A stretch of 28,265 nucleotides of DNA from a virus. The position numbers and the translations under genes are program-made. The notes beneath the pieces are model-generated. The model worked only from the letters and a program-made list of their open reading frames with translations, was not told the DNA's origin and did not search any database. Positions 6,180-27,518 of the stretch are shown here, piece by piece. The stretch is from IMG/VR virus record IMGVR_UViG_3300044678_000994, positions 1 through 28,265 of that record; one strand, given 5' to 3'. Positions within the stretch are counted from its first letter, which is position 1, and each line of letters opens with the position of its first letter.

Positions 6180-6442
6180 TGCCAAAGGTGCAACCCATCG
6201 TCCAAACCCCACCCCTAGCCGTCGACCGCGCCACCGCAGCAGCCGCGCTCGGCGTGTCGGAGTCAACGCTGGAGGGGCTGGTGCGCGCGGGTGAGGCGCC
6301 AGCACCGAGGCGCATATCGCGAGGGCGTGTCGCGTGGCTGTGGCGCGATCTTGTGGCGTTTGCAGAGTCTCGGCCGGTCAGCGAGTTGCAGCCGGGGCCG
6401 GGGCGGACATCAACCCGCGACGATGAGGCGATCCGTGCATGA
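6179..6442 (+). CDS. AlpA/excisionase-like winged-helix DNA-binding protein
   Basis: The ATG at 6179 overlaps the previous stop as TGATG. The 87-residue product contains a helix-turn-helix of the AlpA/MerR-like excisionase type: AAAALGVSESTLEGLVRAG (residues about 19-37), then PAPRRISRGRVAWLWRDLVA with the wing and the WRDL helix. Such proteins act as excisionases or transcription regulators of prophages. No integrase is visible in the window, so whether this phage integrates cannot be told; a regulator of the adjoining genes is equally possible. The stop is at 6440-6442, inside the start of the truncated methyltransferase frame. Confidence 0.75.
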   Translation: MPKVQPIVQTPPLAVDRATAAAALGVSESTLEGLVRAGEAPAPRRISRGRVAWLWRDLVAFAESRPVSELQPGPGRTSTRDDEAIRA

Positions 6443-6560
6443 GTTGGCACTTTTCGCGGGCGCTGGTGGAGGCATTCTCGGCGGACACCTGCTCGGATGG
6501 CGAACCATCTGCGCCGTCGAGTGGGAGCCCTACGCCGCAGGCGGGCTTGTGCTACGGTAA
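6435..6560 (+). pseudogene. 5' fragment of a DNA cytosine-5 methyltransferase
   Basis: A frame beginning at GTG 6435 encodes HELALFAGAGGGILGGHLLG followed by WRTICAVEWEPYA and stops at a TAA after 41 codons. This is the N-terminal motif I (FAGAGG, cofactor binding) and motif II (the acidic residue of AVEWE) of C5-methyltransferases; the catalytic PC motif and target-recognition region are absent. Full enzymes have roughly 250-400 residues. The last residues (AAGGLVLR) depart from what follows in the family, so the coding sequence is cut at about 6535-6560, right where the oppositely oriented late operon ends. A different frame from 6439 to 6633 is also open but has no family resemblance. I read this as a remnant at a rearrangement junction, or a joining error in the assembly. 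Confidence 0.7.
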
Positions 6561-6598
6561 CTGCCCGGTGATTTCGGAAACCTACGCAGGGAACTGCA

Positions 6599-7147
6599 CT
6601 ACCGGCGCAACTGCGGCACCTGCGAATTCCTGACCGCGAACCACCACCCGATGCACACGCCCGCCTGAAACATCGTCCACGCGAGCACGTAGCCCAGCCA
6701 TTCGCGCCAGTCCTCCGGCGTGAACTCCACGCCCGAGCGCATGGCGAGCACGATGACCGCGATCGTCAGCGCGGACGAAGCGACCACGAACCAGAGCGTG
6801 ACGAACGGCCGGATCGCCTTCGAGAACGAGGACACCCAGCCCTCCCCCGCGAACTGCGTCGCGTAGCCGGCGGCGATGGCATCGAACTGTGCCGCCTCGA
6901 CCTTGCCCTCGGTCTCGATGCTGGCGATGCGTTCCTTGCCCGCGATCTCGGCGTGCATGATCTCGATGTCCACGCGGCGCAGCGCAACCTCGTGGGCCCG
7001 CGCCTTCTCGGCGTCCAGCAGTTCGAGCTTCTTTACCTCGATGTCCTGCTTCCGCTGCAGCCATCCGCCGACCCAGCCAAGCGCGGAGCCGGCGACGTTC
7101 GAGCCGAGAAGCTTGCCGATGCCGGCGATGAGGGTCAGGGGTTCCAT
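6599..7147 (-). CDS. Holin of the gene-transfer-agent/3-TM type
   Basis: I set the start at the ATG at 7147, not the longer open frame, because it gives a family-like N-terminus (MEPLTLIAGIGKLLG) and follows the DUF5675 gene closely. The 182-residue product has a weakly hydrophobic N-terminal segment (about 5-30), a charged coiled-coil region (32-90), then two clear membrane segments at about 113-136 (RPFVTLWFVVASSALTIAV) and 149-172. This resembles the family described as holin of three TMs for gene-transfer release. It would permeabilise the inner membrane to trigger lysis. It is the last gene of the late operon, next to the truncated methyltransferase of the opposite strand. Confidence 0.75.
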   Translation of the reverse strand: MEPLTLIAGIGKLLGSNVAGSALGWVGGWLQRKQDIEVKKLELLDAEKARAHEVALRRVDIEIMHAEIAGKERIASIETEGKVEAAQFDAIAAGYATQFAGEGWVSSFSKAIRPFVTLWFVVASSALTIAVIVLAMRSGVEFTPEDWREWLGYVLAWTMFQAGVCIGWWFAVRNSQVPQLRR

Positions 7148-7557
7148 TTCACCTCCAGTTCGAACGGGCGGCCCTGCATCGCAGCCATGAACCGGCGCAC
7201 CGCCGGCCGAGAAAGCAGCACAGCACGTTGACCGCTGAGGCTGCCCATCCGCTCGCCGAGCAGGATGCAGCCTTGCACGTGCGTCTTTCGCTGCGGGATC
7301 TGGCCTGCCCAGTTGCCGGCGTGGATCAGGATGTGCGTCCGGCCTGGCACGTTCTGCACGCCGTAGACGCGGCCGAAGCGCGGGCTGTTGACGACGGCGC
7401 ACCGGTAGACGCCGGCCGGGATGCACGAGCGTTTGCGCGCGTTGTCGAGCCAGGGGAGTTCCAGCGTGTGGCAACCGAACGACTCCGACACCAGCACGCC
7501 TGGCGTGCCTTCCTCGGTCGACGGGTCGCGGAGGATCAGCACGCGAGGAAGCGCCAT
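7135..7557 (-). CDS. DUF5675 protein, candidate lysis enzyme
   Basis: The 140-residue product, from the ATG at 7557 (TGATG overlap with the gene before it), carries the features of DUF5675: EGTPGVL near residue 16, TLELPWLDN (31-39), SCIPAGVYRC (44-53), the core ILIHAGN (76-82) and GCILLG (96-101). The biochemical role of the family is not established to my knowledge. The H79 and C97 pair, spaced like the histidine and catalytic cysteine of L,D-transpeptidase (YkuD) folds, suggests a peptidoglycan link; this is inference only. It sits between a small membrane protein and the holin, the place where an endolysin would be expected, and no lysozyme, amidase or transglycosylase is otherwise visible. 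It overlaps the holin start by 13 bases. Confidence 0.75.
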   Translation of the reverse strand: MALPRVLILRDPSTEEGTPGVLVSESFGCHTLELPWLDNARKRSCIPAGVYRCAVVNSPRFGRVYGVQNVPGRTHILIHAGNWAGQIPQRKTHVQGCILLGERMGSLSGQRAVLLSRPAVRRFMAAMQGRPFELEVKWNP

Positions 7558-7862
7558 CAGTGCCCCTTCCGTTCCTGCAGCATGAGCTTCAGCAGTTCCT
7601 TCACGTCGGTCTCGATCGTTGAGAGCCGCCGGTCGTTGCGGTCGCCGACCTCGCGCAGCGCGAGCGCGGTCTCGCTCTTCGTCGCGTAGACCTCGGGGAT
7701 TTTCTCCGCGAGCTTCTCGAGCTTCTCCTGGGTCTGCTTCATGTCGGCCTTCATCGCGTTGACGATCCACGCGACAACGCCCGCGATAACGCCGCCGAGA
7801 TTGCCGATCCACGGGCCGATATGCTCGAGCAGGCGCAAAAACGAAGGGTCGACGTCGTGCAC
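7557..7862 (-). CDS. Small membrane-anchored coiled-coil protein of the lysis region
   Basis: A GTG at 7862, two bases after the TerL stop, opens a 101-residue frame; the longer open frame upstream overlaps terminase and is a shadow. Residues about 15-37 form one hydrophobic segment (IGNLGGVIAGVVAWIVNAM), followed by a charged heptad-rich tail (KQTQEKLEKLAEKI, then LSTIETDVKELLKLMLQERK). One anchor followed by a coiled coil fits a lysis accessory protein such as an antiholin, a haemolysin XhlA-like protein or a spanin-like protein; none can be assigned. The ending overlaps the DUF5675 start by one base (TGATG). Confidence 0.6.
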   Translation of the reverse strand: MHDVDPSFLRLLEHIGPWIGNLGGVIAGVVAWIVNAMKADMKQTQEKLEKLAEKIPEVYATKSETALALREVGDRNDRRLSTIETDVKELLKLMLQERKGH

Positions 7863-7864
7863 CC

Positions 7865-9484
7865 TCAATACTCCACGGTCACGGTGTATTCGCCCTGCGT
7901 CGGCCGCCAGCCGCGCATCGGGTCCAGATTGCCGGCGGCTACGACTCGACCGATCCGCACCGGTTCGTCGTCGATCGCCTTCGCCGCGGCGTCGAGATAG
8001 TCGTCCGGCTGGTTCGATACCTGGGGATTCCATTGCAGCATCTGCGTCCGGACGCGCTCGATCACGGACACGTGCGCCCATAGCGCCCCGCTCTGCATGT
8101 TCGGCTCGAAGGCGGCGAGAATGCTCGGGTTCTTGGCCTTCGTGCTTTGCCGCTCGTAGACCGAGGCCGACAGCTTCCGAGCGCGCAGCGCGCCACGCAG
8201 AATCGACGGCACGTGCCCGCCGATCCCGTTCGTTTCGACGTTCACGCATGGGATCTGAAACTCCTTCACGACGTCGCAGACCTGCATCACTTGCCCGCCG
8301 ATAACCTCGCCCTTCTCGTTGAACTCGGCCAGCTCGCCCACCATGCCGAGCGCCCGATGCCAGTAGACATTCCCGAGCGCGTCCTGCAGCACGAGGCACA
8401 GCGCCGAGACGTCGGAGTTGATCTTCCCGGCGGACGGGTCGAGACGCAGCGTCGCAGACATGATCTGCACCTTGCCCAGCCACATCGCGACCTCGCCGTT
8501 CGCCGAGCGGATGGTCGGCTCAACGTCGTAGGGGATGAGCTTGTTCGGGTCGAGGCGGACCGTGCCGATCGGCTTGCTGTGTAGCTGATACTGCGAGTCC
8601 CATTCGTTGAGCGTCCGGCATTCCTTCCGACGCTTCAGCAATTCGGCCCGGTTGAACCGCTCCGGCCAAGCGCACCCGGCATAGCAGTCGATCAGCCCGC
8701 CGGCCAGTTGCTCAAGCACGATCGCCGTGCCGTCGTACCCGTAGTCGATGCCCGCGCGCAGGAGCTTCGTCTGCGGACCGATGCCGACGAAGACGAACTC
8801 CGGATGAAACGACACCGCAAGCCGCTTGCCCTGCGGGTTCTCGACGCGGTGCTCGTTCGCGAAGAGCGGGATCTTCAGGACGTCGGCCCCGGCTGCGATC
8901 TGCTCTTCATACAGGCTGTCGTGCGTGTGCGGCGTGCCGATGTAAAGCTTCCGGCCACCGGGGACGAGGATGTGCGTCTGCTCGCCCAGCCGATAGCGGA
9001 GCTTCTCGCGCGCCTCGGGCGTGCCGATGTTGCGCGGGACCTCCACGTCGTCGTTCTGGCACTCGTCCGCGCGCGAGCTAGTCACGTTCGACATGATGCC
9101 CGCCGCTTGCATGCTGGGGTTCCGCTCGTCGTCGTTGCCGGCCACGCGCCAGAAGGCGATCTCGCCCGTGATGTCGCGCGGGTGAATGCGTGTCCACGGG
9201 TGGCGCAGCAGAACTGCCTTCGTGTCGCGCGATGTCTTGTATGCCGTCCCGTCTTGGTCGCCCTGGTGCAGGATGCGATACGACGGGTCGCGCCAGAAGC
9301 GCCATGCGTTGTAGACGGCGAGGATCGTGGACTTGCTGAAGCCGCGAAACGCCATGAACACGGCATCCGGCCCGCGATGCTCGAGCCAATGCGCCGCGAC
9401 GATGTGGCAGTCGGGGACCGTCCAGCCCTTGGCAGCGGCCCACGCCAGATAGAACGCGAGAAACGAAACATCACGCCTTGGCAT
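7865..9484 (-). CDS. terL: Terminase large subunit (T7 gp19-like)
   Basis: The 539-residue product has a packaging ATPase followed by a nuclease. The P-loop is FRGFSKST (residues 46-53), the region expected to be Walker B reads SRADECQNDDVEV (137-149), and the coupling motif is YIGTPHTHDSLY (181-192). The RNase H-like nuclease part includes LDPSAGKINSD (348-358), VETNGIG (416-422) and a terminal DDYLDAAAKAIDD. Terminase translocates DNA into the procapsid through the portal and cuts it. Its place near the end of the late operon, beside lysis genes, follows the T7 pattern. The Walker B strand is unusually polar (ECQN before DD). The start overlaps the TerS-like gene by 14 bases. Confidence 0.88.
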   Translation of the reverse strand: MPRRDVSFLAFYLAWAAAKGWTVPDCHIVAAHWLEHRGPDAVFMAFRGFSKSTILAVYNAWRFWRDPSYRILHQGDQDGTAYKTSRDTKAVLLRHPWTRIHPRDITGEIAFWRVAGNDDERNPSMQAAGIMSNVTSSRADECQNDDVEVPRNIGTPEAREKLRYRLGEQTHILVPGGRKLYIGTPHTHDSLYEEQIAAGADVLKIPLFANEHRVENPQGKRLAVSFHPEFVFVGIGPQTKLLRAGIDYGYDGTAIVLEQLAGGLIDCYAGCAWPERFNRAELLKRRKECRTLNEWDSQYQLHSKPIGTVRLDPNKLIPYDVEPTIRSANGEVAMWLGKVQIMSATLRLDPSAGKINSDVSALCLVLQDALGNVYWHRALGMVGELAEFNEKGEVIGGQVMQVCDVVKEFQIPCVNVETNGIGGHVPSILRGALRARKLSASVYERQSTKAKNPSILAAFEPNMQSGALWAHVSVIERVRTQMLQWNPQVSNQPDDYLDAAAKAIDDEPVRIGRVVAAGNLDPMRGWRPTQGEYTVTVEY

Positions 9485-9809
9485 CGCGCTTCGGCATGCG
9501 GTCTTGCACGCGGGCCAGGATCTTCTTCGCCTCGCGCTCGCTGCGCTTGATCTCGTCGTCTAAGTCTTCGCCGTCGCGCGGATTGCCAATGGCGCCGTTC
9601 TGTCCGCTGATCGAGTCGAGGCGCGCGTATATGTGCACCGCCTGCGCCGCCACCTTCATGCACCAGTAGCGGTCACCCCTCGCGTCCCGGTCGAGTTCCG
9701 CCGTCGGCGTGTTGCCGCCGATCCAGTTCTCCGGGTCCGCCTCGCGAAACACGGTGTCGAGGAGTCGGTCCTGCAGCGCGGCGAGCCGCTTCGCCTGTTC
9801 GGGTGTCAT
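9471..9809 (-). CDS. Putative terminase small subunit
   Basis: The 112-residue helical product lies directly upstream of and overlaps TerL, the usual place of the small terminase subunit that recognises phage DNA. The sequence starts MTPEQAKRLAALQDRLLDTV and includes RYWCMKVAAQAVHIYARLDS and a charged C-terminus (RSEREAKKILARVQDRMPK). I see no clear helix-turn-helix, so the call rests on size and position. Its start overlaps the stop of the 957-residue gene as ATGA. Confidence 0.6.
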   Translation of the reverse strand: MTPEQAKRLAALQDRLLDTVFREADPENWIGGNTPTAELDRDARGDRYWCMKVAAQAVHIYARLDSISGQNGAIGNPRDGEDLDDEIKRSEREAKKILARVQDRMPKRDAKA

Positions 9810-15568: not shown

Positions 15569-16074
15569 CAGTCCATGATCCCCATCGATTCAGGGAATAC
15601 GCCGCTGCCGCCGCCTCCCATCTTGCTGTACGCCCACCCGGCCTGCGCGCCGCCCTGCAGCACTGTCCCGAGTGCGCCGATGTTCCCCGACACGCGCGCC
15701 TTGCGTGCCGCACGGGACTGCATCTGCGACTGGCTACGCAGCCGCGCCGAGGTGTTCTGCCCGGTGATCAGCGCAGTCAGCGCATCCATCTCGCCACGCC
15801 GCACGATGTCGCCCTGCACGTCGAGCGCGGTGCCGGAGTTCACATCGACGCCAGACGCCCCGTAGGCTGCCGTCGCCTCCTTCCGCGTCATCGTCGCGGC
15901 CCTGCGGATGGCTTTCGCTTCTACCTGCGACATGCCGATGGCCGCGTTCGCATCGGCGAGCGACATGCCCGCTTGGTAGTTGAGCGCGGACTCCTGCTCT
16001 CGGCCCTGCCGGTACTGCCCAAATGCCTGCAGGCCGGTGCCGACCGCCAGTGCCGCAAGTGCCGTGACGCACAT
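15568..16074 (-). CDS. Internal virion protein B (T7 gp14-like)
   Basis: The 168-residue product starts with MCVTALAALAVGTGLQAFGQ, a short Met-Cys opening and a small hydrophobic alanine/glycine-rich helix, then a polar helical body rich in glutamine, arginine and alanine (GREQESALNYQAGMSLADAN). It ends glycine-rich. This closely follows the layout of T7 gp14-type core proteins, which leave the virion and enter the outer membrane during ejection. It sits between the GNAT gene and the gp15-like gene, joined to both by one-base overlaps. Confidence 0.75.
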   Translation of the reverse strand: MCVTALAALAVGTGLQAFGQYRQGREQESALNYQAGMSLADANAAIGMSQVEAKAIRRAATMTRKEATAAYGASGVDVNSGTALDVQGDIVRRGEMDALTALITGQNTSARLRSQSQMQSRAARKARVSGNIGALGTVLQGGAQAGWAYSKMGGGGSGVFPESMGIMD

Positions 16075-16526
16075 CAGGCAGTCCCCCAGGTGTAGACGAC
16101 GCCGCTATGTGCGCCGCCGAGTCGTTCGTAGAGCATGGCCGTGCGCTCCGTTTCCACGCCGGTCGATGCGCCCAGCGAGGTCATCTGCGCGTTTTGCGAC
16201 TTCGCCCAGTCGATGAAGCGACGCACCAGCCGAGCCGCCGCCATTCCGCCACGATGCTCGGGCGCGATGTAGCAGACGAGATCCTCGGCCACGAGCGCGT
16301 GCGAGAACCACTGCGGCGTGAGCAGCCCGACGAGCGTGCCGGTGATCTTGCCGTCCTGCTCGACGACGAAGATGCAGCCCAGCCCCGCGAGAATGGCCGT
16401 CAGCATCTCGTGGACCTTCTCGGGCGCGTAGGGCAGCACGGAGAAGCGCGACTCCGCATGCATGCGCGAGAGCAGATAGACGAGGTCGTCGATGTCTTGC
16501 GAGTGAGCGGCGCGGATCGTGGTCAT
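16074..16526 (-). CDS. GNAT-family N-acetyltransferase (T7 gp13-like position)
   Basis: The 150-residue protein has the GNAT fold pattern: N-terminal TIRAAHSQDIDDLVYLL (strand 1 and helix 1), a central IFVVEQDGKITGTLVGL (strands 2 and 3), the acetyl-CoA site around YIAPEHRGGMAAARLVRRFI (residues 87-106) with the HRGGMAAA loop, and a final YERLGGAHSGVVYTWG. GNAT genes sit at the same place, between the nozzle and internal virion genes, in many T7-like phages, where T7 gp13 is a related morphogenesis protein. Whether this one modifies a protein or is a structural relative is not known. It begins four bases after the nozzle stop. Confidence 0.88.
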   Translation of the reverse strand: MTTIRAAHSQDIDDLVYLLSRMHAESRFSVLPYAPEKVHEMLTAILAGLGCIFVVEQDGKITGTLVGLLTPQWFSHALVAEDLVCYIAPEHRGGMAAARLVRRFIDWAKSQNAQMTSLGASTGVETERTAMLYERLGGAHSGVVYTWGTA

Positions 16527-16530
16527 GGGG

Positions 16531-19269
16531 TCACCCGTCGTTCACGGTCATGCGCTTGATGAGCGCAAGGCATTGGAAGGGAAACGGGACGTCGTGCGTA
16601 ATCGTGATCGAGCCGTCCGAGTCGCCCGATCCGGTGCGGCCCCATCCGAGGTTTTCCATCCGCCAGTCGCCCGAGTAGACCGTCGGGACTGTGGGCGGGG
16701 AGGACACCGGCTGATTAGGCAGTGCGTCGCCGTCCAGTTGCCCGCCCACGGAACCCGATAGCCTCACGATGAGTTCGTGCGCGCTGCTGGCGTTGCCCTG
16801 AGCGGTGCCGGTGCCCGTGCCGATCTCGGTCGGGAGCGTGGTGACGGTCATCGAGAAGGGCAGGCCGGCATAGATTTCGTCCACGACATCCGGCAGTTCA
16901 ATTTCTCCCGCCGAATCGACAACTACCGATCCGTAGAACTTGCCATTGCCGACGACTTGCACGGTCTTGCCTGCGCACTGCGTAAGGCCGAACCAGATAG
17001 TCGTCGGCTGCCCCCATTCGATTACAGGGGTGTACTGTACTTGGCCGGCTGTCAGACGAAACTCGACCGAGCCCTCCCCCGGCGTGAAAGCGACCGCCGG
17101 GACGTAACCAGCGGTTGGCGATATGGCGGTGTAGGGCGTGCCAATCAGTACGCCGTTCAGGTAGAACGAAACTGTGTTGGCGTTCAGATTGATGCGGCAT
17201 CCGATCACGTCGCCGACGTTCCATGCCGCGCCAAACGCTGCGGAGACGCCGTTGTTCCAGCGAAGCGCGTCGGACGAGAAACCGAAACTATTCACGCCTC
17301 CGACCGTGTAGCCGGGCGCATTGCCGGGAGCCCAGCCCGCAATCACCTGCGGCAGAACACCCATGATGATTCGCTGGCCCGCGCTCTTCGAAAGTAGCTT
17401 CACCTCAAAGTAGCGGTCCCATCCGACGCCGTCTGTCGGTATCGCGCCGACGATGCAGCGCGTCGTTGTTCCGCCCGCTTCCTTCGGTGCAGCAGTGACG
17501 ACTGGCTTGGCAAGCGTGACGTTCGTCAAGGCAGAGTTGGCCTCGTTGACCCAGTACGTCCCGAACAGCGTGCAGTCGGTGCCGACCGTGTCATCGAAAA
17601 ACTCCAGAGAGCGAAACGCGCCGCCCGTTGCAGTGCGCTTCACGATGGCAAAGGTCCGGAAAGAGTCGCCGGTCGGCACGACCGCGATGGACTCGACAAC
17701 GCCATCGGTCAGCGTCTGCGCCCACGCGCTGATCTGCTGCTCCTTGTTGTATGTCAGCGGCACCATCTGCCCGTCCGTGCGCAGGCACCACACGACCTGG
17801 TCGGGCAGCGCCTGGTAGTCCATCTCGAGGATTCCCGGCGCGGTGATGTGCTCGGACAGGATCGTGACGTCGGGCGCGTTGAAGTAGTCGGCATCCGAGA
17901 TCGACAGCGCACGAACAGCCCGACTGCCGCGCTGCACGTAGAGGATCTCCTGACCCACCTGCACCGGTCGCCCGGTCGATGCACCGAACGCGCTCTGGAC
18001 CTTCACCTGAATGTTCGTCGGGACGATCGGCTTCTCGATGCCGCCCGTGACCTCCAGCTCCGCGCCGCCGGTATGTCCGACGATGGACCTCGACGCGACC
18101 AGATGCTCGATCGCGGCGGTCTGCTCCGAGGTCGTGAACTGCATCGCGTCGTCGTCGCCGACACCGGTCGAGAAGTCCAGAAAATCACCGGTCACGCTGG
18201 CCCAAAGCGTCGCGGGGAAGAAGTCAGACGACGCTAGGAACAACCGCTGCTGATACGCGCACACCGAGCGCGGATAGCTTCTAGTGATCGGCTTGAACGT
18301 CCACACCGGGGCGCGCAGCGCCCATCCGCCAGACGGTGCCGCAGCAAGTGCCGTCAGTTGCGTGCGGACGATTCCCGTCACGACCGTCGTGCTGGTATAG
18401 CCAGTGATCTGCACAAGCCCGTCATTGATCTCGACGGAGTAGCCGACATGAGATAGGCCCACGAGGTTCTTCCAGCCTGCCGCGCCAAGGGTCAGCGTGA
18501 TCGATGCACCGATCGGGCCGACAGCGCTCGCGGTGCATGTGGTCTTCGGGCTTTCGCTGATTCGCCACGTCTCGACTGGCAGCGATATGCTGTCGAAGGT
18601 CGTCGTGCCTGTGTTGATCGTTACTACGGTTCCGGAAGTCCAGCCTGTGATGATGCCGCGCGCCGATCCCGCCTCGATGTAGCGACCGACATCTGACAGC
18701 GCAAAGCACCCATTGCTGGCCGTAGCCGTTACCGCCGCCCCGCTCGTGGCCGACAACGAAAGCAGCGAGTTCGGCCATTCGCCCAGCTCGTCCGTTGGTG
18801 GTTGCACGAATGGCACGATGCCGAACGAAAACCGATCTGCCAGCAGTCGACGGAGCTGATGCGGCGGCCGGTTCGGATGCACGAGATACATCGTGTCGCC
18901 GTACTGCGTCCAGCGGATCGACGCGATCTCGTCGTGTGTCCACGTCGTCAGGAACGAATAGCCGAGCGAGCGCCCGCCATACGTGTAGACGTTGATGCGG
19001 GTCGCGCTGCCATCCCAGTACAAGACGACCACATACGCCTCGTCGCGCGTGTAGACGAAGCGCAGCAACCGAGCACCCGGAAAACTGGCGGGAAGCGTTG
19101 CCACGTAGCGCAGCCCCGGCCGACGACGGAAGCCCCCATGCGGCAGCGCGTAGGCGTTGAGCATGGTTTTGACCGCGCTGCCGTACTTCGCGAGGTCGGT
19201 GCGGCCGTACAGGCGCGGGCTGATCTCGCCCGTCGTGAAGCTGTTCTGCGATGCGGTGACCTTCGGCAC
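16531..19269 (-). CDS. Tail nozzle / tail tubular protein B (gp12-like) with inserted SPRY-like domain
   Basis: The 912-residue product shows the typical N-terminus of podophage nozzle proteins: QNSFTTGEISPRLYGRTDLA, then GGFRRRPGLRYVA and QRLFLASSD. It forms the tube tip below the adaptor ring and carries DNA to the cell. The start is GTG at 19269, overlapping the TAG of the adaptor gene. Between residues about 617 and 740 it contains a segment with SPRY features: YFEVKLLS, GYTVGG, NVGDVIGCRINLNANTVSFY, LNGVLIG and AVAFTPGEGSVEFRL. After it the nozzle pattern resumes (WGQPTTIWFGLTQCAGKTV). This probably is an accessory beta-sandwich on the nozzle surface, possibly for receptor or fibre contact. 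Lines inside the insert are slightly A+T-richer than their surroundings. Confidence 0.88.
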   Translation of the reverse strand: MPKVTASQNSFTTGEISPRLYGRTDLAKYGSAVKTMLNAYALPHGGFRRRPGLRYVATLPASFPGARLLRFVYTRDEAYVVVLYWDGSATRINVYTYGGRSLGYSFLTTWTHDEIASIRWTQYGDTMYLVHPNRPPHQLRRLLADRFSFGIVPFVQPPTDELGEWPNSLLSLSATSGAAVTATASNGCFALSDVGRYIEAGSARGIITGWTSGTVVTINTGTTTFDSISLPVETWRISESPKTTCTASAVGPIGASITLTLGAAGWKNLVGLSHVGYSVEINDGLVQITGYTSTTVVTGIVRTQLTALAAAPSGGWALRAPVWTFKPITRSYPRSVCAYQQRLFLASSDFFPATLWASVTGDFLDFSTGVGDDDAMQFTTSEQTAAIEHLVASRSIVGHTGGAELEVTGGIEKPIVPTNIQVKVQSAFGASTGRPVQVGQEILYVQRGSRAVRALSISDADYFNAPDVTILSEHITAPGILEMDYQALPDQVVWCLRTDGQMVPLTYNKEQQISAWAQTLTDGVVESIAVVPTGDSFRTFAIVKRTATGGAFRSLEFFDDTVGTDCTLFGTYWVNEANSALTNVTLAKPVVTAAPKEAGGTTTRCIVGAIPTDGVGWDRYFEVKLLSKSAGQRIIMGVLPQVIAGWAPGNAPGYTVGGVNSFGFSSDALRWNNGVSAAFGAAWNVGDVIGCRINLNANTVSFYLNGVLIGTPYTAISPTAGYVPAVAFTPGEGSVEFRLTAGQVQYTPVIEWGQPTTIWFGLTQCAGKTVQVVGNGKFYGSVVVDSAGEIELPDVVDEIYAGLPFSMTVTTLPTEIGTGTGTAQGNASSAHELIVRLSGSVGGQLDGDALPNQPVSSPPTVPTVYSGDWRMENLGWGRTGSGDSDGSITITHDVPFPFQCLALIKRMTVNDG

Positions 19270-20435
19270 TACGCGAACCTCCGCGCATGAATCAGCGGGT
19301 AATCGGTCGGCGTCTCGGAAGTCTCTTCGGTGCCGTCGATCGTCTTCGACTCACGCAGGACGCGAGCGTATTCGGCTTGCATCACCTGCGCCTGACTGGC
19401 GCTCTTGGTGATCGGATAGGCCGCTTCCTTGGCGAGGTAGTACGCGACGCAGTCAGTCACGTGCGAATCCCACAGCCCCGGGTCGGTCACGTCGCGCACG
19501 TATCTCAAGTCGATCGACGGCTCGTCGCAGGCGATCTCGGTGCCGATCATCTTCCAGTCAATCGCGATCTGATCGGTGGAGCAGAAGATGGTCCGCAGCC
19601 AGTCGCGCGGCAGCGCCATCGCGTAGGGCCACTCGCTCGACGGCGCCTTCGCCGGCCATTGCACGTGCCCGGTCGGCGGCGTGTAGGTCCATTCGTTCGG
19701 CAGGAAGCGCGCGAGGATCTGGATCTGCAGGTTGCTGGACCACCCGATCAGCGGGTAGAACACGCGGTTCGGGGCCGAGCGGAGCGTCGAATACGCGACG
19801 CTCTGCGTCACGCCGTTCTTGAAGAAGGTCAGCGTGCCCGCGTCGAGGTCGAGAGCGACGCCGATCACGTCCCCGCTGGTGTACGTGGCGCCATATGCTG
19901 CAGTGACGCCAGCCGACGACTTGAGCCCGTCGCCGCGATACACGAAGCCCACCGTGCCCGCCGCCGTGTTGATGCCGCCCGGCTCAAGCCCGGACCACGC
20001 GTACCACGACGGCACCGGCTCCACGTCCGCCAGGATGCCGATCTGTGCCGTGTTGGTCGCCGGAGTGCGCTCGATCAGCGCTTCGAAGTAGTACTTGCCC
20101 GTGTACAGGTACGGCCGCTGCGCCTCAACGTTGCCAAAGGCCGAGCAGAAGCCGCTAAACGTGGTCGATGACGAGACCCGATTTCCGATGATGTCGGCGG
20201 GGAACCCGTTCGTCAGTACGGGCGACGCAGTACGCGGAGACATCAGCCCCGGCGCCGTCAGCCGCACCTCGCGCACTGCGCAGTTCCACGGATGCGCCCG
20301 CAGCACCGCCTTTCGCGCCTGCGGGTACAGCACGTTCATCAGCCGCGCACGGTCCGTGGCATCGCCGAGCGTCGAGATCGTCTGCGCGCCCACCAGGAGC
20401 AGCGCCTTGTTGCATACCTCGTTGTTCGTCAGCAC
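19269..20435 (-). CDS. Tail adaptor / tail tubular protein A (gp11-like) with inserted SPRY-like domain
   Basis: The N-terminal residues (NKALLLVGAQTISTLGD, RKAVLRAHPWNCAVREVRL) and C-terminal residues (WPYAMALPRDWLRTIF, RYVRDVTDPGLWDSHV, YYLAKEAAYPITKS) are the hallmarks of tail tubular protein A, the dodecameric adaptor between portal and nozzle. Family members are usually about 190-200 residues; this one is 388. The extra ~150-200 residues (about 65-262) contain a SPRY-like domain: YTGKYYFEALIE, GDVIGVALDLDAGTLTFFKN and VFYPLIGW. The start is a GTG at 20435 with GAGG seven bases upstream; the nearby ATG at 20446-20448 is in another frame. It is one gene after the head protein and overlaps the nozzle gene by one base. 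Confidence 0.9.
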   Translation of the reverse strand: MLTNNEVCNKALLLVGAQTISTLGDATDRARLMNVLYPQARKAVLRAHPWNCAVREVRLTAPGLMSPRTASPVLTNGFPADIIGNRVSSSTTFSGFCSAFGNVEAQRPYLYTGKYYFEALIERTPATNTAQIGILADVEPVPSWYAWSGLEPGGINTAAGTVGFVYRGDGLKSSAGVTAAYGATYTSGDVIGVALDLDAGTLTFFKNGVTQSVAYSTLRSAPNRVFYPLIGWSSNLQIQILARFLPNEWTYTPPTGHVQWPAKAPSSEWPYAMALPRDWLRTIFCSTDQIAIDWKMIGTEIACDEPSIDLRYVRDVTDPGLWDSHVTDCVAYYLAKEAAYPITKSASQAQVMQAEYARVLRESKTIDGTEETSETPTDYPLIHARRFA

Positions 20436-21229: not shown

Positions 21230-22120
21230 TTATTCGAAGCAACCGATTTGGACCACGCCCTCGTCCTCGACGCGGACGGCGCCCACGGCCATGCGGGCAT
21301 ACACCTGCATCGCCATGTTCTTGCCGGGCATGCGGTCGATCGACGTCACGATGTCCTTGCCGACGCCCATCGCGACGCAGGGCTTGGCCCATGCCATCGC
21401 GAAGCGGGTCGTGCTGGTCTTGGCGAGACGCTCCGAGCGAATGAACTTGAAGCCCAGGAACGTATCGACCTGACCCTGCGAGAGCGCCTTGACCGAGTTG
21501 TAGTCCACCGACTTGATCTCGGTCGTGCCGTACAGGTTGGTCAGTTGCTTCGACGAGCAGGCGATGAAGCGCGTTGCGTTCATCGTCTGGCCGGTCATCT
21601 GCTCGCTGTCTTCGCCAGGCTGCGCGACTTCGGCCGAGTCGAGGATTTCCTTCGCGGCGAGCAGCTTCGCGAGCGTGAGGCCCGTGCCGCCTTCCGCGAT
21701 GACCTGACTGGACGGCAGCGCCTGCGTGCCCGTGTTGGTGCGTGCCGCGCCTCGCAGTGCCGCGTAGATGACGTCGTCCTTGGCCCGGTTGAGCGCCTGG
21801 ACGGCGAGCTTCGGGTACTTGGACTTCGGATCGGCGAGCATGCGAACCTCGTCGAGTTCGTCCACCAGCTCGGCCCAGCCCTTGTCGGACAGGTCGATCC
21901 AGCGGCGGGAGTGCGGGACCTCGACGTAGCGCGTATCGGAGTGCCGCGACGTGATGTCGTAGGCTTCCGTCCGACCCACCCGCTCCACGGCCTTCGATTG
22001 GCCGATGATGCCGGGGTGCATCGTCACGCACTGCTCGAACCGCGAGGTCATCTGCTGGCCGAGTTCGTAGAAATTGGCCGCGTACTGCTGTACGAATGCT
22101 TCGGTGATCTGGAATGACAT
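21230..22120 (-). CDS. Major capsid protein
   Basis: The 296-residue product follows scaffold and has the features of podophage capsid proteins of this group: MSFQITEAFVQQYAANFYEL at the N-terminus, DLSDKGWAELVDELDEVRML in the E-loop region, ALNRAKDDVIYAALRG, and a C-terminal FAMAWAKPCVAMGVGKDI. I use the ATG at 22120, preceded by AGGAG with good spacing; the open frame extends to 22147 but has no ribosome site. An 8-base inverted repeat sits over the ribosome site (see separate entry). It assembles around the scaffolding protein encoded just upstream to form the T=7-type head expected for this class (inferred). Confidence 0.85.
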   Translation of the reverse strand: MSFQITEAFVQQYAANFYELGQQMTSRFEQCVTMHPGIIGQSKAVERVGRTEAYDITSRHSDTRYVEVPHSRRWIDLSDKGWAELVDELDEVRMLADPKSKYPKLAVQALNRAKDDVIYAALRGAARTNTGTQALPSSQVIAEGGTGLTLAKLLAAKEILDSAEVAQPGEDSEQMTGQTMNATRFIACSSKQLTNLYGTTEIKSVDYNSVKALSQGQVDTFLGFKFIRSERLAKTSTTRFAMAWAKPCVAMGVGKDIVTSIDRMPGKNMAMQVYARMAVGAVRVEDEGVVQIGCFE

Positions 22121-22127
22121 GAGGTGA

Positions 22128-22161
22128 ACTCCTGAGCGTTGAACCACACGCCTCGCTCAGG
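22128..22161 (-). promoter_or_regulatory. Hairpin overlapping the capsid ribosome binding site
   Basis: The perfect 8-base inverted repeat CCTGAGCG (22131-22138) and CGCTCAGG (22154-22161) flanks a 15-base loop. On the minus-strand RNA the second arm ends in CAGG and runs directly into AGTTCACCTC and the capsid ATG, so part of the AGGAG ribosome site would be paired. It may tune capsid translation or protect a processed 5' end. Confidence 0.45.
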
Positions 22162-22265: not shown

Positions 22266-23102
22266 CTATGCCGCCTGCTTGCCCTTCAGCTTTGCTTCGG
22301 CTTCGAAGTGAGCGCGGACCTTGGCCTTGATGCGCTCATGCTCCGGGTGCTGCTCGTTCCAATAGGCCGGGTTCTTCATCAGCGCGGAGAGGTCCTCCGG
22401 CTGCTGAACGTGCTGCGCGACTGCGGCCGTGTCCTCCTGCATCTCCGCGCCGACCTTGGCGAGGATGCGCAGCAGAGCCGGGTTGTTCCCCAGTCGCGGC
22501 AGTTCGGCCTTGATGTCCTCGTCGGCCAGCGCGTTGAATGCCTTCAGCGCCAGGCCCACGTTCTTGCGAATGTCCGCGTCGTTCTTCCAGACGGCTTTCA
22601 GTTGCGCTTCGCACTCGGAGCGCTGGTACTGCATCGCCTGCTCTGCGATGTCGCCGATCGTCCCAACGTACCGCTCCATGACGCCCTGGTACTGCTTCGT
22701 CGTGAGGCCGAGCCCGTGGCAGAACTGCTTGAACTCCTGCGTGCGCTCGGCGTCGAGTTCGATGTCCTTCAGGTCCTCGGGCGGCTCGAACGTGTAGCCG
22801 GTGACATCCTTCGGCGGGGCGCCGCCGTCGCGCATGCGCTGCTCCAGCGCCGTGTACGACTTCAGCACATCGTCGGTGCGAATCGCCTTCTTCTCGGCGT
22901 CCCAGAACTTCTCGGGCACGCCCTCGGGGCGACCGTCGGCAGAGGGCGCAGCGGGAGCGGCATCAGCCGGCGCGGCGCTTGCCGTCGCCTCGGCCGTCAT
23001 CGACTCCAGAAAGCTCGCGGTCTGTGTCGCGGCAGCCGTGGCGGCTCCGGTGTCCGCCGAGGTCTGCGTCGTGCTGGTCCCGCTGTCTGCGACTTCACTC
23101 AC
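22266..23102 (-). CDS. Capsid scaffolding protein
   Basis: The 278-residue protein is acidic with a disordered, Ala/Thr/Ser-rich N-terminus (about 1-58), then EGVPEKFWDAEKKAIRTDD (59-77), the conserved opening of many podophage scaffold/capsid-assembly proteins, followed by long charged helices and a lysine-rich C-terminus (EAEAKLKGKQAA) of the kind that contacts the capsid protein. The start is GTG at 23102, after GAGGTGACGA and overlapping the preceding gene by 8 bases. It lies directly before the major capsid gene, where a scaffold is expected. Confidence 0.85.
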   Translation of the reverse strand: MSEVADSGTSTTQTSADTGAATAAATQTASFLESMTAEATASAAPADAAPAAPSADGRPEGVPEKFWDAEKKAIRTDDVLKSYTALEQRMRDGGAPPKDVTGYTFEPPEDLKDIELDAERTQEFKQFCHGLGLTTKQYQGVMERYVGTIGDIAEQAMQYQRSECEAQLKAVWKNDADIRKNVGLALKAFNALADEDIKAELPRLGNNPALLRILAKVGAEMQEDTAAVAQHVQQPEDLSALMKNPAYWNEQHPEHERIKAKVRAHFEAEAKLKGKQAA

Positions 23103-23313
23103 TCGTCACCTCTTGCGCTTTGAGCAGTTGTCCCTGGATGAACTCCACCACCGCCCGCTGGCCGAGGTTGTAGGCCGTGGCGCGATCGCCTTCCTGCCCG
23201 CCTCGGACGAACATGTGCCGGTGATCGTAGAACCGCGCCTGCAGGTCCTCGAGGATCTGCGCGCCTTCGTGATGGCCCTCGAAGACGCGGGAATACATGC
23301 GTTCGTCGACCAT
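23095..23313 (-). CDS. Bbp19-like small phage protein
   Basis: The 72-residue product (YSRVFEGHHEGAQILEDLQA, then RFYDHRHMFVRG and AYNLGQRAVVEFIQGQL) matches the pattern of the small Bbp19-like phage proteins, named after Bordetella phage BPP-1, that lie between portal and scaffold or capsid genes. Function is unknown; it is thought to be virion- or assembly-related by its position. It overlaps the stop of the 124-residue gene by one base and the scaffold start by 8 bases. Confidence 0.65.
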   Translation of the reverse strand: MVDERMYSRVFEGHHEGAQILEDLQARFYDHRHMFVRGGQEGDRATAYNLGQRAVVEFIQGQLLKAQEVTSE

Positions 23314-23687
23314 CAGTTACCCGGCAGCGCCGATTCGCGCTGCACGCTCAGTTCGTAGTCCATCGACCGGAACGCCTGCTGCGTCACGAGGACGAGGCGC
23401 CACTGATCGTTCGGCGCGACCGTGATCGCGACGTTGTTCTGCGCGCTGTTGTAGGTGGTTTGCGTCGCCCAGGTGTGCCCGTTGTTCTGGCTCCGCTCGG
23501 TCCGCACGGTGTTGTTCGCGTCGATCGTGGAGTTCCTCGGGTGCGCCGTGTCGTTGGGCAGCGTGAGCCGTGCCGAGTACGTGGCAGCGCCGTTGACCGT
23601 GCCGGCGGGGATGACCAGCACGTCCGAGGTCTGGCCCGGGCCGGGCGATGCGCCGGATGCGAAAGTGCCTTTGATGATTTGTGACAT
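23313..23687 (-). CDS. Putative structural protein, 124 residues
   Basis: This is a beta-rich, threonine/asparagine-rich protein with no charged helices: IKGTFASGASPGPGQTSDVL, VIPAGTVNGAATYSARL, RTERSQNNGHTW and NDQWRLVLVTQQAF. Composition and position in the head-tail gene block suggest a virion component, perhaps a head fibre or adhesin. I do not recognise a family. A weak GAGAGA ribosome site precedes the ATG at 23687, and the stop overlaps the Bbp19-like start. Confidence 0.55.
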   Translation of the reverse strand: MSQIIKGTFASGASPGPGQTSDVLVIPAGTVNGAATYSARLTLPNDTAHPRNSTIDANNTVRTERSQNNGHTWATQTTYNSAQNNVAITVAPNDQWRLVLVTQQAFRSMDYELSVQRESALPGN

Positions 23688-23702: not shown

Positions 23703-23912
23703 TCAGGACAGCATCGATTCGACTTCAGCGCGACTCACAGTCCGGCGCGACGAATCGATTGCGCGCTTGCCGTTGTCGTACTCCCAGACTGAGAAGTGCC
23801 CGTCGGTGTGCTGCCACACTTGCAGCCAATGCCCATTCGGCAATTCTGCTTCGGCGTAGCGACTCGCCTCGCCGCAGCACCCTTGACTCCACGTCAGGTC
23901 ATCCAGTGTCAT
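23703..23912 (-). CDS. Hypothetical protein, 69 residues
   Basis: The small product contains two cysteines side by side (TWSQGCCGEASRYAEAELPN), several aromatic residues (GHWLQVWQHTDGHFSVWEYD) and an SRAEVESML C-terminus. It begins with an ATGA overlap from the tail protein gene and ends 15 bases before the 124-residue gene, so it is probably translated. No family recognised. The sequence is A+T-richer than the capsid genes, like the adjacent tail protein gene, which suggests both arrived together. Confidence 0.5.
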   Translation of the reverse strand: MTLDDLTWSQGCCGEASRYAEAELPNGHWLQVWQHTDGHFSVWEYDNGKRAIDSSRRTVSRAEVESMLS

Positions 23913-25474
23913 TCCGAGGCTCCATACCAGAACCCGCTCAACCCGTCGGCCACCAGCAGCGTGCCGGCCTGCTGCAGTTGTCGGATGTAGTTCATCGACA
24001 GCGTCCAGTTGCTGATGGCAATGGTGAGCCCGTCACCTGGCGCGGTTGACAGGCCGTCACCCGTGTCGCCGAGCGAGGTCAAGTTGTGCCAGAAGATGAA
24101 GCCCGTATCGCCGTAGCGGACCAGCATGTCGATGTAGCTCTTGATGCGCGGGAAGGTCACCATGCCGTTCGCATCGATCCCGACCGATCCGCTACCAAGA
24201 TCCACTGCTCCGACGTGCGCGGCGTTGTCGATGCCCCACGGAGTCACGCAGGTGTTCTGCTTTCTGGCGTGCCGCTGCAGCACGATTCCGGTGTTCCGCG
24301 CGATGACCGTCTCAGCGAGTCGAGACGTGGACGACTGCGGGCTTGCGTAGAACTCGCCCCCACGACGCCACCCCTGGGCCTTGTACCAAGCCGCCGCCGC
24401 GACGATCTCCGAATAGATTTCGCCGGAGTTCGTGTAGCTGTTCAGCGCGTTGTGGTTCATGGTGTGGTTGATGATGTCCCAGCCCGCGTCATACGCGGCC
24501 TGTGCAAACACCATCCCGTTACCGTCGGCAGGCTGGTTTTTCCAGTCTGTGACCAGCCCGTAGCTCGGGTTCGAAACCCGGCGCGGTGCGGCGAGGTAGC
24601 CTTTCCACCCGTTGCGCCTGAAAAGCGGAAGCACGACCGTCGTCAGCAACGACGCCGCCAGCGCTTGATCGCATCCGAGGACCACCTGCGGCCGCGTCAC
24701 GAAATCAGTCCACAGGCTGTCGAAGTACAGCGTGGCGCCGACTAGGTTGTTCATCGTGATCGCCATGTATCGCAGATTCGCAGTCATGACGTTTGCGAAT
24801 GCGAAATTGGCGTTGGTCGTTTCGGTCATGCCGAAGAAATGCCCGTCTCGACCGCCGGCATCAATCTGCCCAAGCGTGCCGGAGTAGCTTCCGCTGTTCG
24901 TCGGGTTCGTGGTCTTGACGACCTTCAGGCAGTTCCAGCCTTCGCGCAGTTGGTTGGCGTTGAATGTCCAGCTAATCGCCGAAGCAGTAGCAGCCGGGTC
25001 AGTAGACACTGACAGTGTGATCGTCGCCGTGGGCGTCTCGCCCGGGCCGTACAGCGGGAGACTGGCAACAAAGACCCACAGCATCAGCTTGCCAGCCGTC
25101 GCGGTCGACGGGAAGTTGGCCGGCAGAATGCGGATGGCATCGGTTGCGCCAGTCGGCACCACCCTGAGCAGCGTCGGCATTCCCGTGCGGCTCACGGGAT
25201 CGCTGGTCGGCAACCCGGCCGTATCGAGTCCGCTCGTGTTGCTCAGGGTGGGCGTTCCTACCGTCGCGCCCCAGTTGGCGGCGGTTCGGAAGATGTCGAT
25301 CAGCGTGCCCATTTCCCTGGACGCCAACGTCGTGCCAAACGGCTGCGCGTTCGGGAATCTCTGCACGGCAGCCGAGAACTCCATCGCGGGAGTAGTTCGG
25401 GTGGAATCGAAAATAGTCCACCCGCTCGGGCCTAGTATTCCGATACTGGAAGAGACGTCTGTCGACTGTGCCAT
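23909..25474 (-). CDS. Tail fibre/spike-type protein with carbohydrate esterase 4-like domain
   Basis: The 521-residue protein has an N-terminal part rich in serine, threonine and glycine, a beta-rich middle (about 120-260, ending ATLYFDSLWTDF) and a C-terminal domain resembling polysaccharide deacetylases of the NodB/CE4 fold. Visible motifs are VVLGCDQAL (264-272) in the place of TFDDG, HTMNH (H337, H341) for the metal-binding histidines, EFYASPQSS (374-382) in the place of the third motif, and FIFWHN (H463) for the final histidine. The first aspartate is kept (D269), the second is glutamine (Q270). Such an enzyme would modify capsule, lipopolysaccharide or exopolysaccharide during adsorption. 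Its location between portal and scaffold, and its lower G+C, are unusual. A virion role is inferred. Confidence 0.65.
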   Translation of the reverse strand: MAQSTDVSSSIGILGPSGWTIFDSTRTTPAMEFSAAVQRFPNAQPFGTTLASREMGTLIDIFRTAANWGATVGTPTLSNTSGLDTAGLPTSDPVSRTGMPTLLRVVPTGATDAIRILPANFPSTATAGKLMLWVFVASLPLYGPGETPTATITLSVSTDPAATASAISWTFNANQLREGWNCLKVVKTTNPTNSGSYSGTLGQIDAGGRDGHFFGMTETTNANFAFANVMTANLRYMAITMNNLVGATLYFDSLWTDFVTRPQVVLGCDQALAASLLTTVVLPLFRRNGWKGYLAAPRRVSNPSYGLVTDWKNQPADGNGMVFAQAAYDAGWDIINHTMNHNALNSYTNSGEIYSEIVAAAAWYKAQGWRRGGEFYASPQSSTSRLAETVIARNTGIVLQRHARKQNTCVTPWGIDNAAHVGAVDLGSGSVGIDANGMVTFPRIKSYIDMLVRYGDTGFIFWHNLTSLGDTGDGLSTAPGDGLTIAISNWTLSMNYIRQLQQAGTLLVADGLSGFWYGASE

Positions 25475-27106
25475 TTAGGCTTCCACTTCCTGAGCCCCGG
25501 CCCGATCCTTCCCGGCCTTGGCGAGTTGTCCGTCAAGCGCGGCCAGTTGCCCGGCGGCTTGTGCATCGTTCATGGCCTGCTGCATCGCGGCCTGCTGCTC
25601 GCGGATCGCGGTCAGTTCGTCCTCGGTCACGATGAGCGACAGCGGCACGCCGAGCTTCTCGCCCTTCTCGCGCTGCGCGTCGTCCCACCGGTAGACGTCC
25701 ATCACCTCGGGGCGCGCCTGGCCCGCCTGCATCAGCGACATTTCGAAGCGGTCCATCGCCGAGACATCTACGAGTTTCTGAGAGCGCGCGATCGGGCTGC
25801 GGTAGTGCACGGTCATGTTCCGACCTGCCAGCGCTTGCGGTGCCGGGCCGAAGTAGCCGGCGCGGTAGGCAACACCGAAGCAGCGCTCGACCAGCGGCTG
25901 CAGCATCTCGGCCTGAAGCCGGCCGTAGACCGGGCCCAGCAGTTGCCGGATGAGTTCGACGCGGACGTGCACCTCGGTCGCCGTCATGGCCGGGCCGTCC
26001 TGCGGCTGTAGCTGGTCGGCGAGCATGACCTTGCGGATCGAGCGTTGGAGTTCGTCCACGATCAGCGCCGACACATCAAAGTTGCCTGCCGGCTGCAGCG
26101 GCTTGATGTTGTCCGGGTTCGCCGCGACGATGACCTTGCGCGGGCCGATCTTCAAAGTCTTGGGGTTCAGCACGCCGTCGTCGGTCGCGACCCACATGCC
26201 GGCAATGGCGAGGTCCGCATTCGCGAGGACGAACTGCTTCAGCGTGTTGAGCGTCTTGATGTCGGGCAGCGCGTCGCGCGTCGGGCCCACCGCATAGACC
26301 GAGTCCGGAATCACCGTCCATCGCGGAGAGACGCACGGCGCCTCGTGGTAGCCGGACTCGCGCACGATCTGCTTGGCCTGCTTCTCGACGTGCACCGAGG
26401 CATACGGCAAGTTTCGCGCAAGCACGCCCTGCGCATTGCGGCGCGGGTAGATTGCTTGGATGAACGAGACCATGTCGTCCCGCCCGCCGCCCTGTGCCTT
26501 GTCGCGGGTGGACTCCGAGACGCGGCCCTCGTAGAAGTTCAACGCCTGCTCGGCCGACATCTGCATGAGCCGATACCACGTGTCGATCCGCCCGCCCGGC
26601 ACACTGGCTGCGGCATACACGCCGGTCAGCGGCCAGAGGTCGAACGAGAGCCCGCGCTCGAAGTCCTCGTCGATGAAGAAGTTGCACCAGCCGGCAATGC
26701 TCATGTCGAGCATGCCCTCGAAGCCGACCGCGTCGTAGTTCGTCGAGTGGATCAGTTCCCACAGCGCGTCCGCCGCCTCGTCGAGCCACGTCTCGGCAGC
26801 ATCGTCCTCGACGCCCTCGGCCTGCAGTTCGAACCAGCGCGAGTTGGCCGGGGTCAGTCCCGACATCAGCGACGACGCCAGCAGGCGGACGCAGTCGGTC
26901 GCGGTGCTGTCGAACAGCTCGGCCTGTCGATCTCGCGAGGCGTTCGCCGTCTCGCTCGGCGTCATCAGCGCACCCGGAGCGCGCAGCGCCTGACCCCGGA
27001 TCGGCATCGTGTAGTCGTAGCACTCGCGCCACTGCTGCTCGATGACCGAGCGCGCGGAGAACAGCTTCTCGAAGCGCTGGAGGATCTGACCGGCGTCGGC
27101 GGGCAT
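25475..27106 (-). CDS. Portal (head-tail connector) protein
   Basis: The 543-residue product from ATG 27106 carries the features of the T7-type connector family: ILQRFEKLFSARSVIEQQWR and CYDYTMP near the N-terminus, ASSLMSGLTPANSRWFEL, NLPYASVHVE, the stem region PDIKTLNTLKQFVLANADLA, DGPAMTATEVHVRVE and a glutamine-rich C-terminal helix. The protein forms the dodecameric ring at one capsid vertex through which terminase pumps DNA and to which the tail adaptor binds. An upstream extension of 28 codons overlaps the preceding gene and lacks homologous character. It is followed directly by the CE4-like tail gene, whereas many relatives have the scaffold close by. Confidence 0.88.
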   Translation of the reverse strand: MPADAGQILQRFEKLFSARSVIEQQWRECYDYTMPIRGQALRAPGALMTPSETANASRDRQAELFDSTATDCVRLLASSLMSGLTPANSRWFELQAEGVEDDAAETWLDEAADALWELIHSTNYDAVGFEGMLDMSIAGWCNFFIDEDFERGLSFDLWPLTGVYAAASVPGGRIDTWYRLMQMSAEQALNFYEGRVSESTRDKAQGGGRDDMVSFIQAIYPRRNAQGVLARNLPYASVHVEKQAKQIVRESGYHEAPCVSPRWTVIPDSVYAVGPTRDALPDIKTLNTLKQFVLANADLAIAGMWVATDDGVLNPKTLKIGPRKVIVAANPDNIKPLQPAGNFDVSALIVDELQRSIRKVMLADQLQPQDGPAMTATEVHVRVELIRQLLGPVYGRLQAEMLQPLVERCFGVAYRAGYFGPAPQALAGRNMTVHYRSPIARSQKLVDVSAMDRFEMSLMQAGQARPEVMDVYRWDDAQREKGEKLGVPLSLIVTEDELTAIREQQAAMQQAMNDAQAAGQLAALDGQLAKAGKDRAGAQEVEA

Positions 27107-27107
27107 G

Positions 27108-27518
27108 TCAGCCGCCCAAGAGTGTGGCTTTCGGCGCAGCGCCCGCAAGCTGCTGCAGGACCGGGCCAGCCTGGAACAGCGACGCGCCAAGACGGCGTCG
27201 ACGGCGCGACTTCATTTCGACGGCTGCGGCTGCTGCGTCTGCGCTGGCCTGATCGGCCTGCCCGGCGATGTCGGGAGCGGGAGCGGGCTGCGGTGCGTCG
27301 TTGTTGTTGCCCTTGGGCACGAGGGCGCCGAGGCCGATCGTGTCAGCGGCCAGAGAGCCGAGGTTCTTGAGGTCGTCGAGCGCGCCCTTGGCGTCGCCCC
27401 TGACGAGCGACGCAACCGGCTTCACGGTGGCGCGGGTGAGGTCGTCGACCCGCGACAGCGAGTTGGAGACCGCCTTCACCGGGTTGCGAACGACCTGCCC
27501 GACCTTGCCGCCGCACAT
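27108..27518 (-). CDS. Small virion-associated protein with MCGG start
   Basis: The 136-residue product begins MCGGKVGQVVRNPVKAVSNS, a pattern seen in small proteins encoded next to portal genes in T7-like phages. The middle is Ala/Pro-rich (DAPQPAPAPDIAGQADQASA) and the C-terminus holds a basic run (MKSRRRRRLGASLFQ). No catalytic motif is visible. The stop lies one base before the portal start. I chose the ATG at 27518 rather than longer in-frame starts, which would overlap the preceding gene. Confidence 0.65.
   Translation of the reverse strand: MCGGKVGQVVRNPVKAVSNSLSRVDDLTRATVKPVASLVRGDAKGALDDLKNLGSLAADTIGLGALVPKGNNNDAPQPAPAPDIAGQADQASADAAAAAVEMKSRRRRRLGASLFQAGPVLQQLAGAAPKATLLGG

Follow-up and report, generated by a model that had tools for sequence, protein, structure and literature searches.

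The 521-residue protein P0001, encoded between the portal and scaffold genes of a podovirus-like phage, is best explained as a modular, exchangeable protein of the virion surface that engages glycans and is perhaps borne on the capsid, a reading to which a somewhat better than even chance is assigned. Among the systems compared it probably resembles the turret head of the archaeal virus HFTV1 most, a likeness that describes it better than the label of CE4 deacetylase tail spike suggested by the first-pass annotation. The window, meaning the whole stretch of DNA analysed, is one complete virus record of 28,265 bases, possibly a genome fragment. The genes around P0001 are the following:

25475..27190, minus strand: portal protein (head-tail connector), profile match to PF12236; one border of the slot
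23909..25474, minus strand: P0001, a 521-aa protein with a putative N-terminal docking peptide, a galactose-binding-like beta-sandwich and a NodB/CE4-like domain
23703..23912, minus strand: 69-aa ORF downstream of P0001, ahead of the 124-aa gene
23313..23687, minus strand: companion protein of 124 aa, member of a ∼102-aa family
22266..23102, minus strand: scaffold/protease-like protein, profile matches to phrog_3742 and phrog_458; opposite border of the slot
21230..22147, minus strand: major capsid protein, profile match to PF19821

On the minus strand these genes are read in the order portal, P0001, 69-aa ORF, 124-aa gene, scaffold/protease-like gene and major capsid gene, followed by the genes for tail proteins, internal virion proteins and terminase. 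The reading frame of P0001 is open along all 521 amino acids and its start directly adjoins the portal stop codon at 25475; as the scaffold-like gene runs from 23102, the position between portal and scaffold given at first pass is correct. The 69-aa ORF has no counterpart among the slot proteins compared. The closest portals in named phages are those of Yersinia phages YeP4-6 (48.5%) and Alcaligenes phage Piluca (40.5%), in which a gene of the size of P0001 is absent between the portal and the next head genes. Farther along the minus strand, the gp11-like and nozzle-like tail proteins (19269-20435 and 16531-19269) each contain an insertion of SPRY type (Pfam E 3e-13 and 1e-9, respectively); these domains could be tail-borne receptor-binding parts of the phage. 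The gene for a predicted acetyltransferase (16074-16526, minus strand; phrog_1249) separates that of the nozzle-like protein from one for an internal virion protein.

The portal–scaffold interval is an exchangeable cargo slot. Related contigs were fetched via the portal (80 loci) and the capsid protein (37 loci), and the interval could be measured in 94 contigs, the few fetched by both routes being counted twice: it is shorter than 600 bp in 62 and reaches at least 1 kb in 28. The cargo comprises SGNH/GDSL hydrolases (loci L009, L016, L046 and L085), a GDPD protein (L099), GH5 cellulase-like proteins (L095, L103), a DUF1996 protein (L010), a protein with Calx-beta repeats (L098), another weakly matched to head decoration (L015), and numerous unknowns. 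Several unrelated genes share one slot in L010 and L092; the L010 interval (3552-9758) extends over 6 kb and eight ORFs, including that of the DUF1996 protein (E 2e-41). The slot of L030 (5192-8545) and L033 (4838-8191) is filled by a 1117-aa protein directly after the portal, and the L033 copy gave no match in Pfam or PHROG. The deacetylase family PF01522 was found in one of the 33 records searched, namely in the window and in none of 32 related phage records, so that the slot rarely carries NodB cargo. An all-against-all BLAST of slot proteins linked P0001 to no other cargo.

P0001 nevertheless shares its start with slot proteins to which it is not homologous:

25403..25474, minus strand: residues 1-24 of P0001, MAQSTDVSSSIGILGPSGWTIFDS, a putative slot-specific docking peptide, traced by regular expression, profile and scan

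Similar starts are present on unrelated SGNH slot proteins (MADSSTISSSLATLTSAGW in L085, VTDANSVSPSLATLGTSGW in L016), on the GDPD protein of L099 (MADVSSGLASLTGGGW), in L108 (MATSGDITPNLASLGSAGW), in L118 (MTIDANSVSSALAVLGASGW) and in others. A regular expression, composed after the starts had been seen, matched 14 ORFs out of the 3,124 that reach 150 aa, with repeat copies of a gene counted, and 12 of the 14 are slot genes. With P0001 withheld, a profile built from six other peptide starts found it at E 2.4e-4: among 4,349 ORFs it was the sole one outside the training set, copies of the training rows aside, to fall under the inclusion threshold, and the same profile had zero matches in shuffled sequences. 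Scanning the DNA pattern of the peptide over 2.9 million viral contigs yielded 19 loci. At nine of these the motif lies just after a start codon, and each of the nine also carries at least one related gene for portal, scaffold or capsid; the remaining ten, from which such genes are absent, seem to be chance matches. Within these 2.9 million contigs the motif at an ORF start is limited to this phage group, in which the scan added an SGNH protein (L172) and proteins of 211 aa (L176) and 129 aa (L171) as new bearers. Such a distribution suggests that the 24-residue peptide may dock P0001 to the virion.

Separate acquisition of the module, proposed at first pass, is upheld by the variable slot and the shared N-terminal peptide, not by base composition as originally argued. 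The P0001 gene has a G+C content of 62.1% against 65.2% for the window, with 51.7% in its lowest 120-nt stretch, and its GC3 of 0.795 is equalled by two other structural genes (0.796 and 0.792); low G+C as proof of acquisition was dropped as weak. The lowest G+C of the window is found around 3200-3500, near the gene for a DNA methyltransferase-like protein (3535-4422, plus strand; phrog_67), the 3' half of which also matches a helicase profile (phrog_16).

The slot also carries a small companion protein. A family of ∼102 aa is encoded in the portal–scaffold interval of 16 other loci, and the 124-aa gene of the window is a member; at two peptide-bearing loci, L099 and L103, the companion is absent. 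Searches found no solved relative of this family and no relative among 50,697 phage records. Homology to the base protein of HFTV1 had been considered on account of an N-terminal likeness seen by eye and was rejected: the comparison, which included the upstream in-frame extension, gave a probability of 6%, which is not significant.

Two domains make up the remainder of P0001:

24701..25339, minus strand: residues 46-258, beta-sandwich, CBM-like or galactose-binding-like (Foldseek matches to CBM11, CBM28 and CBM61)
23921..24700, minus strand: residues 259-518, NodB/CE4-like (beta/alpha) domain (Pfam, AlphaFold2 model, Foldseek)

PF01522 (Polysacc_deac_1) aligns with residues 324-387 at E 2e-4 and 21.7 bits, against a cut-off of 23.1, and reaches 24.3 bits in a six-frame scan; the homologues L148 and L153, the latter from Methylomonas, score 31.6 and 33.9. 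The AlphaFold2 model based on a 14-member alignment has a pLDDT of 74.3 and a pTM of 0.80, with low confidence for residues 1-42, and the DD-type relatives in that alignment possibly steered it towards the CE4 fold; without an alignment the pLDDT is 31. The top Foldseek match in the PDB is the HFTV1 turret (8qpg_TA, E 4.8e-14, 505 columns, 14% identity), and the polysaccharide deacetylase 3rxz of M. smegmatis is matched at E 2.3e-3. Viral proteins matched include gp673 of Bacillus phage G (3e-21) and several annotated as polysaccharide deacetylase, so the combination of beta-sandwich and NodB domain is already known in proteins of phages and archaeal viruses. Sequence searches of the PDB with P0001 alone or with a four-member alignment (A4) did not find deacetylases; CE4 structures emerge in the profile search once DD-type relatives are in the profile and are thus not independent evidence. 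The model supports a predicted NodB/CE4-like fold for the C-terminal half, as the first-pass annotation had anticipated, fused to a carbohydrate-binding-like beta-sandwich.

The catalytic-site positions, as read from the alignment, are these:

24665..24670, minus strand: motif 1, D269 (catalytic-base position) kept, Q270 instead of the metal-ligand Asp
24452..24466, minus strand: motif 2, H337-x3-H341, the metal histidines, invariant
24332..24355, minus strand: motif 3, EFYASPQS, residues 374-381, P379 invariant
24272..24274, minus strand: R401, invariant in the close clade
24086..24088, minus strand: motif 5, H463 (catalytic-acid position), invariant, then the clade-specific G469-D470

In CE4 enzymes catalysis uses the first Asp of motif 1 as its base, and the metal is bound by the second Asp and HxxxH (PMC4505593). 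D269, Q270, H337, H341 and H463 lie exactly where they had been reported, and the replacement of the second Asp recurs in other phage copies. Across the 14-member alignment D269, H337, H341, P379, R401 and H463 are invariant. The scan pattern itself preselected G331, W332, N336 and both histidines in most rows, which means that they do not count as independently conserved; no such selection applied to D269, P379, R401 and H463. Over the NodB part of six homologues 39 of 263 columns are invariant, the same six positions among them, and D470 is an invariant acid specific to the clade. Given the PF01522 match, the order of the motifs exceeds chance.

Position 270, by contrast, reads Q, A, A, S, D and A across the six homologues (in the MAFFT alignment L148 is gapped at this position, and the residue following its Asp is A): it is freely substituted and its neighbours are held. 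The second Asp is also absent from the distant phage copies L140, L135 and L139, and is kept in DD-type copies and in HFTV1 gp31. Of the Arg-x-Pro of motif 3, the proline is present as P379 and the arginine is absent in P0001 and other phage copies. This pattern fits a domain that still needs its groove, perhaps with a weakly held metal, and fits neither simple decay nor ordinary catalysis. P0001 shares with the CE4 esterases of PF01522 the fold, the first motif-1 Asp, HxxxH, the motif-3 Pro and the motif-5 His; it differs in having Gln in place of the second motif-1 Asp, a metal ligand, in lacking the motif-3 Arg and in a whole-protein score below the Pfam gathering value. Since the defining metal ligand was checked and is absent, P0001 is classed as CE4-like and not as a CE4 enzyme.

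Neither tblastn against phages and plasmids with P0001 nor single-protein pattern scans of viral and genome contigs found its close relatives. A DNA pattern for motif 2, G-W-(D/E)-(I/M)-x-N-H-T-x2-H, scanned over IMG/VR returned 24 loci, two of which hold full-length homologues, L146 (E 9e-90) and L148 (E 4e-63), and an alignment-based scan added L151 as a third. These three phage proteins are 31-40% identical to P0001 and have Ala (L146, L148) or Ser (L151) in place of the second motif-1 Asp. The L146 gene sits between terminase and portal in a phage with a different portal family, the L151 gene between terminase and a phrog_332 portal, and the L148 gene adjoins a spanin gene. A second genome scan yielded a cellular homologue in a Methylomonas MAG (L153, 7776-9269; 39% identity; motif CDD, likely active), and L157 (1498-2967; motif CDA) is 65% identical to it; within its family the type is rare, being found in two of 201 genomes (L153 and L157). 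Both proteins bear Tat-type signals and are probably secreted. The signal of L153 and the functions of its neighbours, which point to sugar-nucleotide and polysaccharide synthesis and include a WcaJ-like sugar transferase, were read by eye from sequence. The Tat-type signals and the L153 setting among polysaccharide-type genes suggest a surface-glycan substrate. The tree resolves the close clade and not the order in which the second Asp was lost: its branches are long and the clade includes one DD protein, and repeated loss is as compatible with it as a single loss followed by a regain.

The similarity of P0001 to L146, L148 and L151 starts near residue 35-44, and that to the cellular homologues near 56-66. 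Upstream of the shared region the N-terminus differs from backbone to backbone, and in the cellular proteins the Tat-type signal stands there; the N-terminus therefore behaves like a targeting module that can be exchanged.

The closest known parallel is gp31 of HFTV1, a trimeric turret head protein seated on a hexameric base that the adjoining gene encodes; binding and modification of S-layer glycans have been proposed as its function, and PDB 6IA5 is reported as a relative of the base protein (PMC12494034). Between 50 and 70% of HFTV1 particles attach head first (PMC9973310). Like P0001, gp31 (PDB 8QPG) has a galactose-binding-like domain followed by a CE4-like domain, over 505 aligned columns, and just as the small base-protein gene adjoins gp31, a small companion gene lies near P0001. 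The differences are considerable: HFTV1 is an archaeal siphovirus, gp31 has an intact DD and a Zn site whereas P0001 retains two His without the metal Asp, N-terminus and gene position differ, the identity in the fold alignment is 14%, and the companions are not demonstrably homologous. The gp31 gene is located between tail-completion and tail-tube genes, away from the portal. Layouts of beta-sandwich and NodB domain similar to that of P0001 are also found in the 'minor tail protein/glucosaminyl deacetylase' of Gordonia phages, gp673 of Bacillus phage G, TM7 phage DolZOral124_53_65 and gp33 of EBPR podovirus 1. In those examined DD is kept, N-termini and genomic positions are other than in P0001, and the identity to gp673 and most others in fold alignments is at most 15%.

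Explanations divide on where in the virion P0001 would reside. It may instead be a spike attached to tail or neck, its short N-terminal peptide docking on the tail and its slot position amounting to gene-order noise; this is unlikely, yet deserves serious weight. The Gordonia phage proteins of the same architecture are annotated as minor tail proteins, the TM7 phage copy is encoded among tail-fibre genes, and the peptide-bearing L176 has a stretch that looks tail-fibre-like by eye. Second receptor-binding proteins of podoviruses dock via short N-terminal anchors, and such anchors have reportedly been discussed in a study of Klebsiella phages. G7C gp63.1 and Possum gp66 are established SGNH tail fibres that deacetylate carbohydrates (PMC9569702): like the proposed P0001 they are virion-borne, and SGNH domains occur in its slot behind its own peptide, but their fold is unrelated to P0001. 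Against the tail, the anchor-bearing genes of this phage group adjoin the portal and lie outside the tail block, the homologues in two other backbones (L146, L151) adjoin head genes, and the one solved structure found to share the two-domain layout over the full length belongs to a capsid turret. The 'tail protein' of the first-pass annotation finds no sign in the sequence, and no profile library assigned P0001 to a tail family. Gene context favours the head, although gene position does not fix virion location, as HFTV1 gp31 among tail genes, L148 beside a spanin gene and the Gordonia annotations illustrate.

A different question, compatible with either virion location, is catalytic state. P0001 could be a fully active CE4 N- or O-deacetylase that removes acetyl groups from the polysaccharide of the host, the place of the metal Asp being taken by Gln270 or by some other residue; we consider this quite unlikely. 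The six invariant positions in the close clade argue against plain decay, and clade-specific invariant acids such as D470 could serve this reading. The residues substituted for the Asp, in four phage copies and one cellular copy, are mostly non-metal-binding, and a change in a CE4 motif can abolish activity, as in SpPgdA D391N (PMC4505593). The lost Asp makes ordinary CE4 catalysis, and with it the deacetylase activity first proposed for P0001, doubtful. Improbable, finally, is a non-virion, moron-type gene, intracellular or expressed from a prophage, that alters the surface polysaccharide of the host itself. The cellular homologues with Tat signals, one of them among polysaccharide-type genes, and the several unrelated genes in slots such as L010 and L092 speak for it; yet P0001 has no recognisable signal peptide, the start it shares with other cargo is not signal-like, and its gene stands in the co-oriented head block directly after the portal.

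As a surface protein of the virion, P0001 would be docked by its N-terminal peptide of ∼24 residues, its middle beta-sandwich would bind carbohydrate, and the NodB/CE4-like domain would touch that glycan as well; since Gln occupies one of its three metal-ligand positions, this domain would be either a pseudo-enzyme that binds or an enzyme whose metal site is altered. In related phages the slot carries SGNH esterases, GDPD, glycoside hydrolase-like or adhesin-like proteins, several behind the peptide of P0001 and often with the companion. By analogy with the two-gene turret of HFTV1, in which a small base carries a head trimer of the same fold as P0001, P0001 would most likely sit on the surface of the capsid and most likely serve in an initial, perhaps reversible, attachment to capsule, O-antigen or exopolysaccharide. 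Sugar-binding and deacetylase-like domains, together with a tag common to unrelated enzymes, suggest that P0001 probably helps the virion to grip or modify the sugar coat of the host.

A more specific proposal, plausible enough to state and held only tentatively, is a bacteriophage counterpart of the HFTV1 turret: peptide and ∼102-aa companion would mount swappable NodB, SGNH, GDPD or other modules, either enzymes acting on glycans or pseudo-enzymes resembling lectins, on the capsid for head-first contact with the sugar coat of the host, and the NodB module would derive from a secreted bacterial protein related to surface polysaccharide, its Tat signal exchanged for the peptide and its metal Asp substituted. 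The authors of the HFTV1 study regarded turret heads as peculiar to that archaeal virus (PMC12494034); proteins of the same architecture near head genes of bacterial phages suggest that their use is wider. Tail genes are the usual basis for reading phage adsorption: should a portal-side slot serve to mount glycan-active modules, host-range prediction that considers tail fibres only would miss them.
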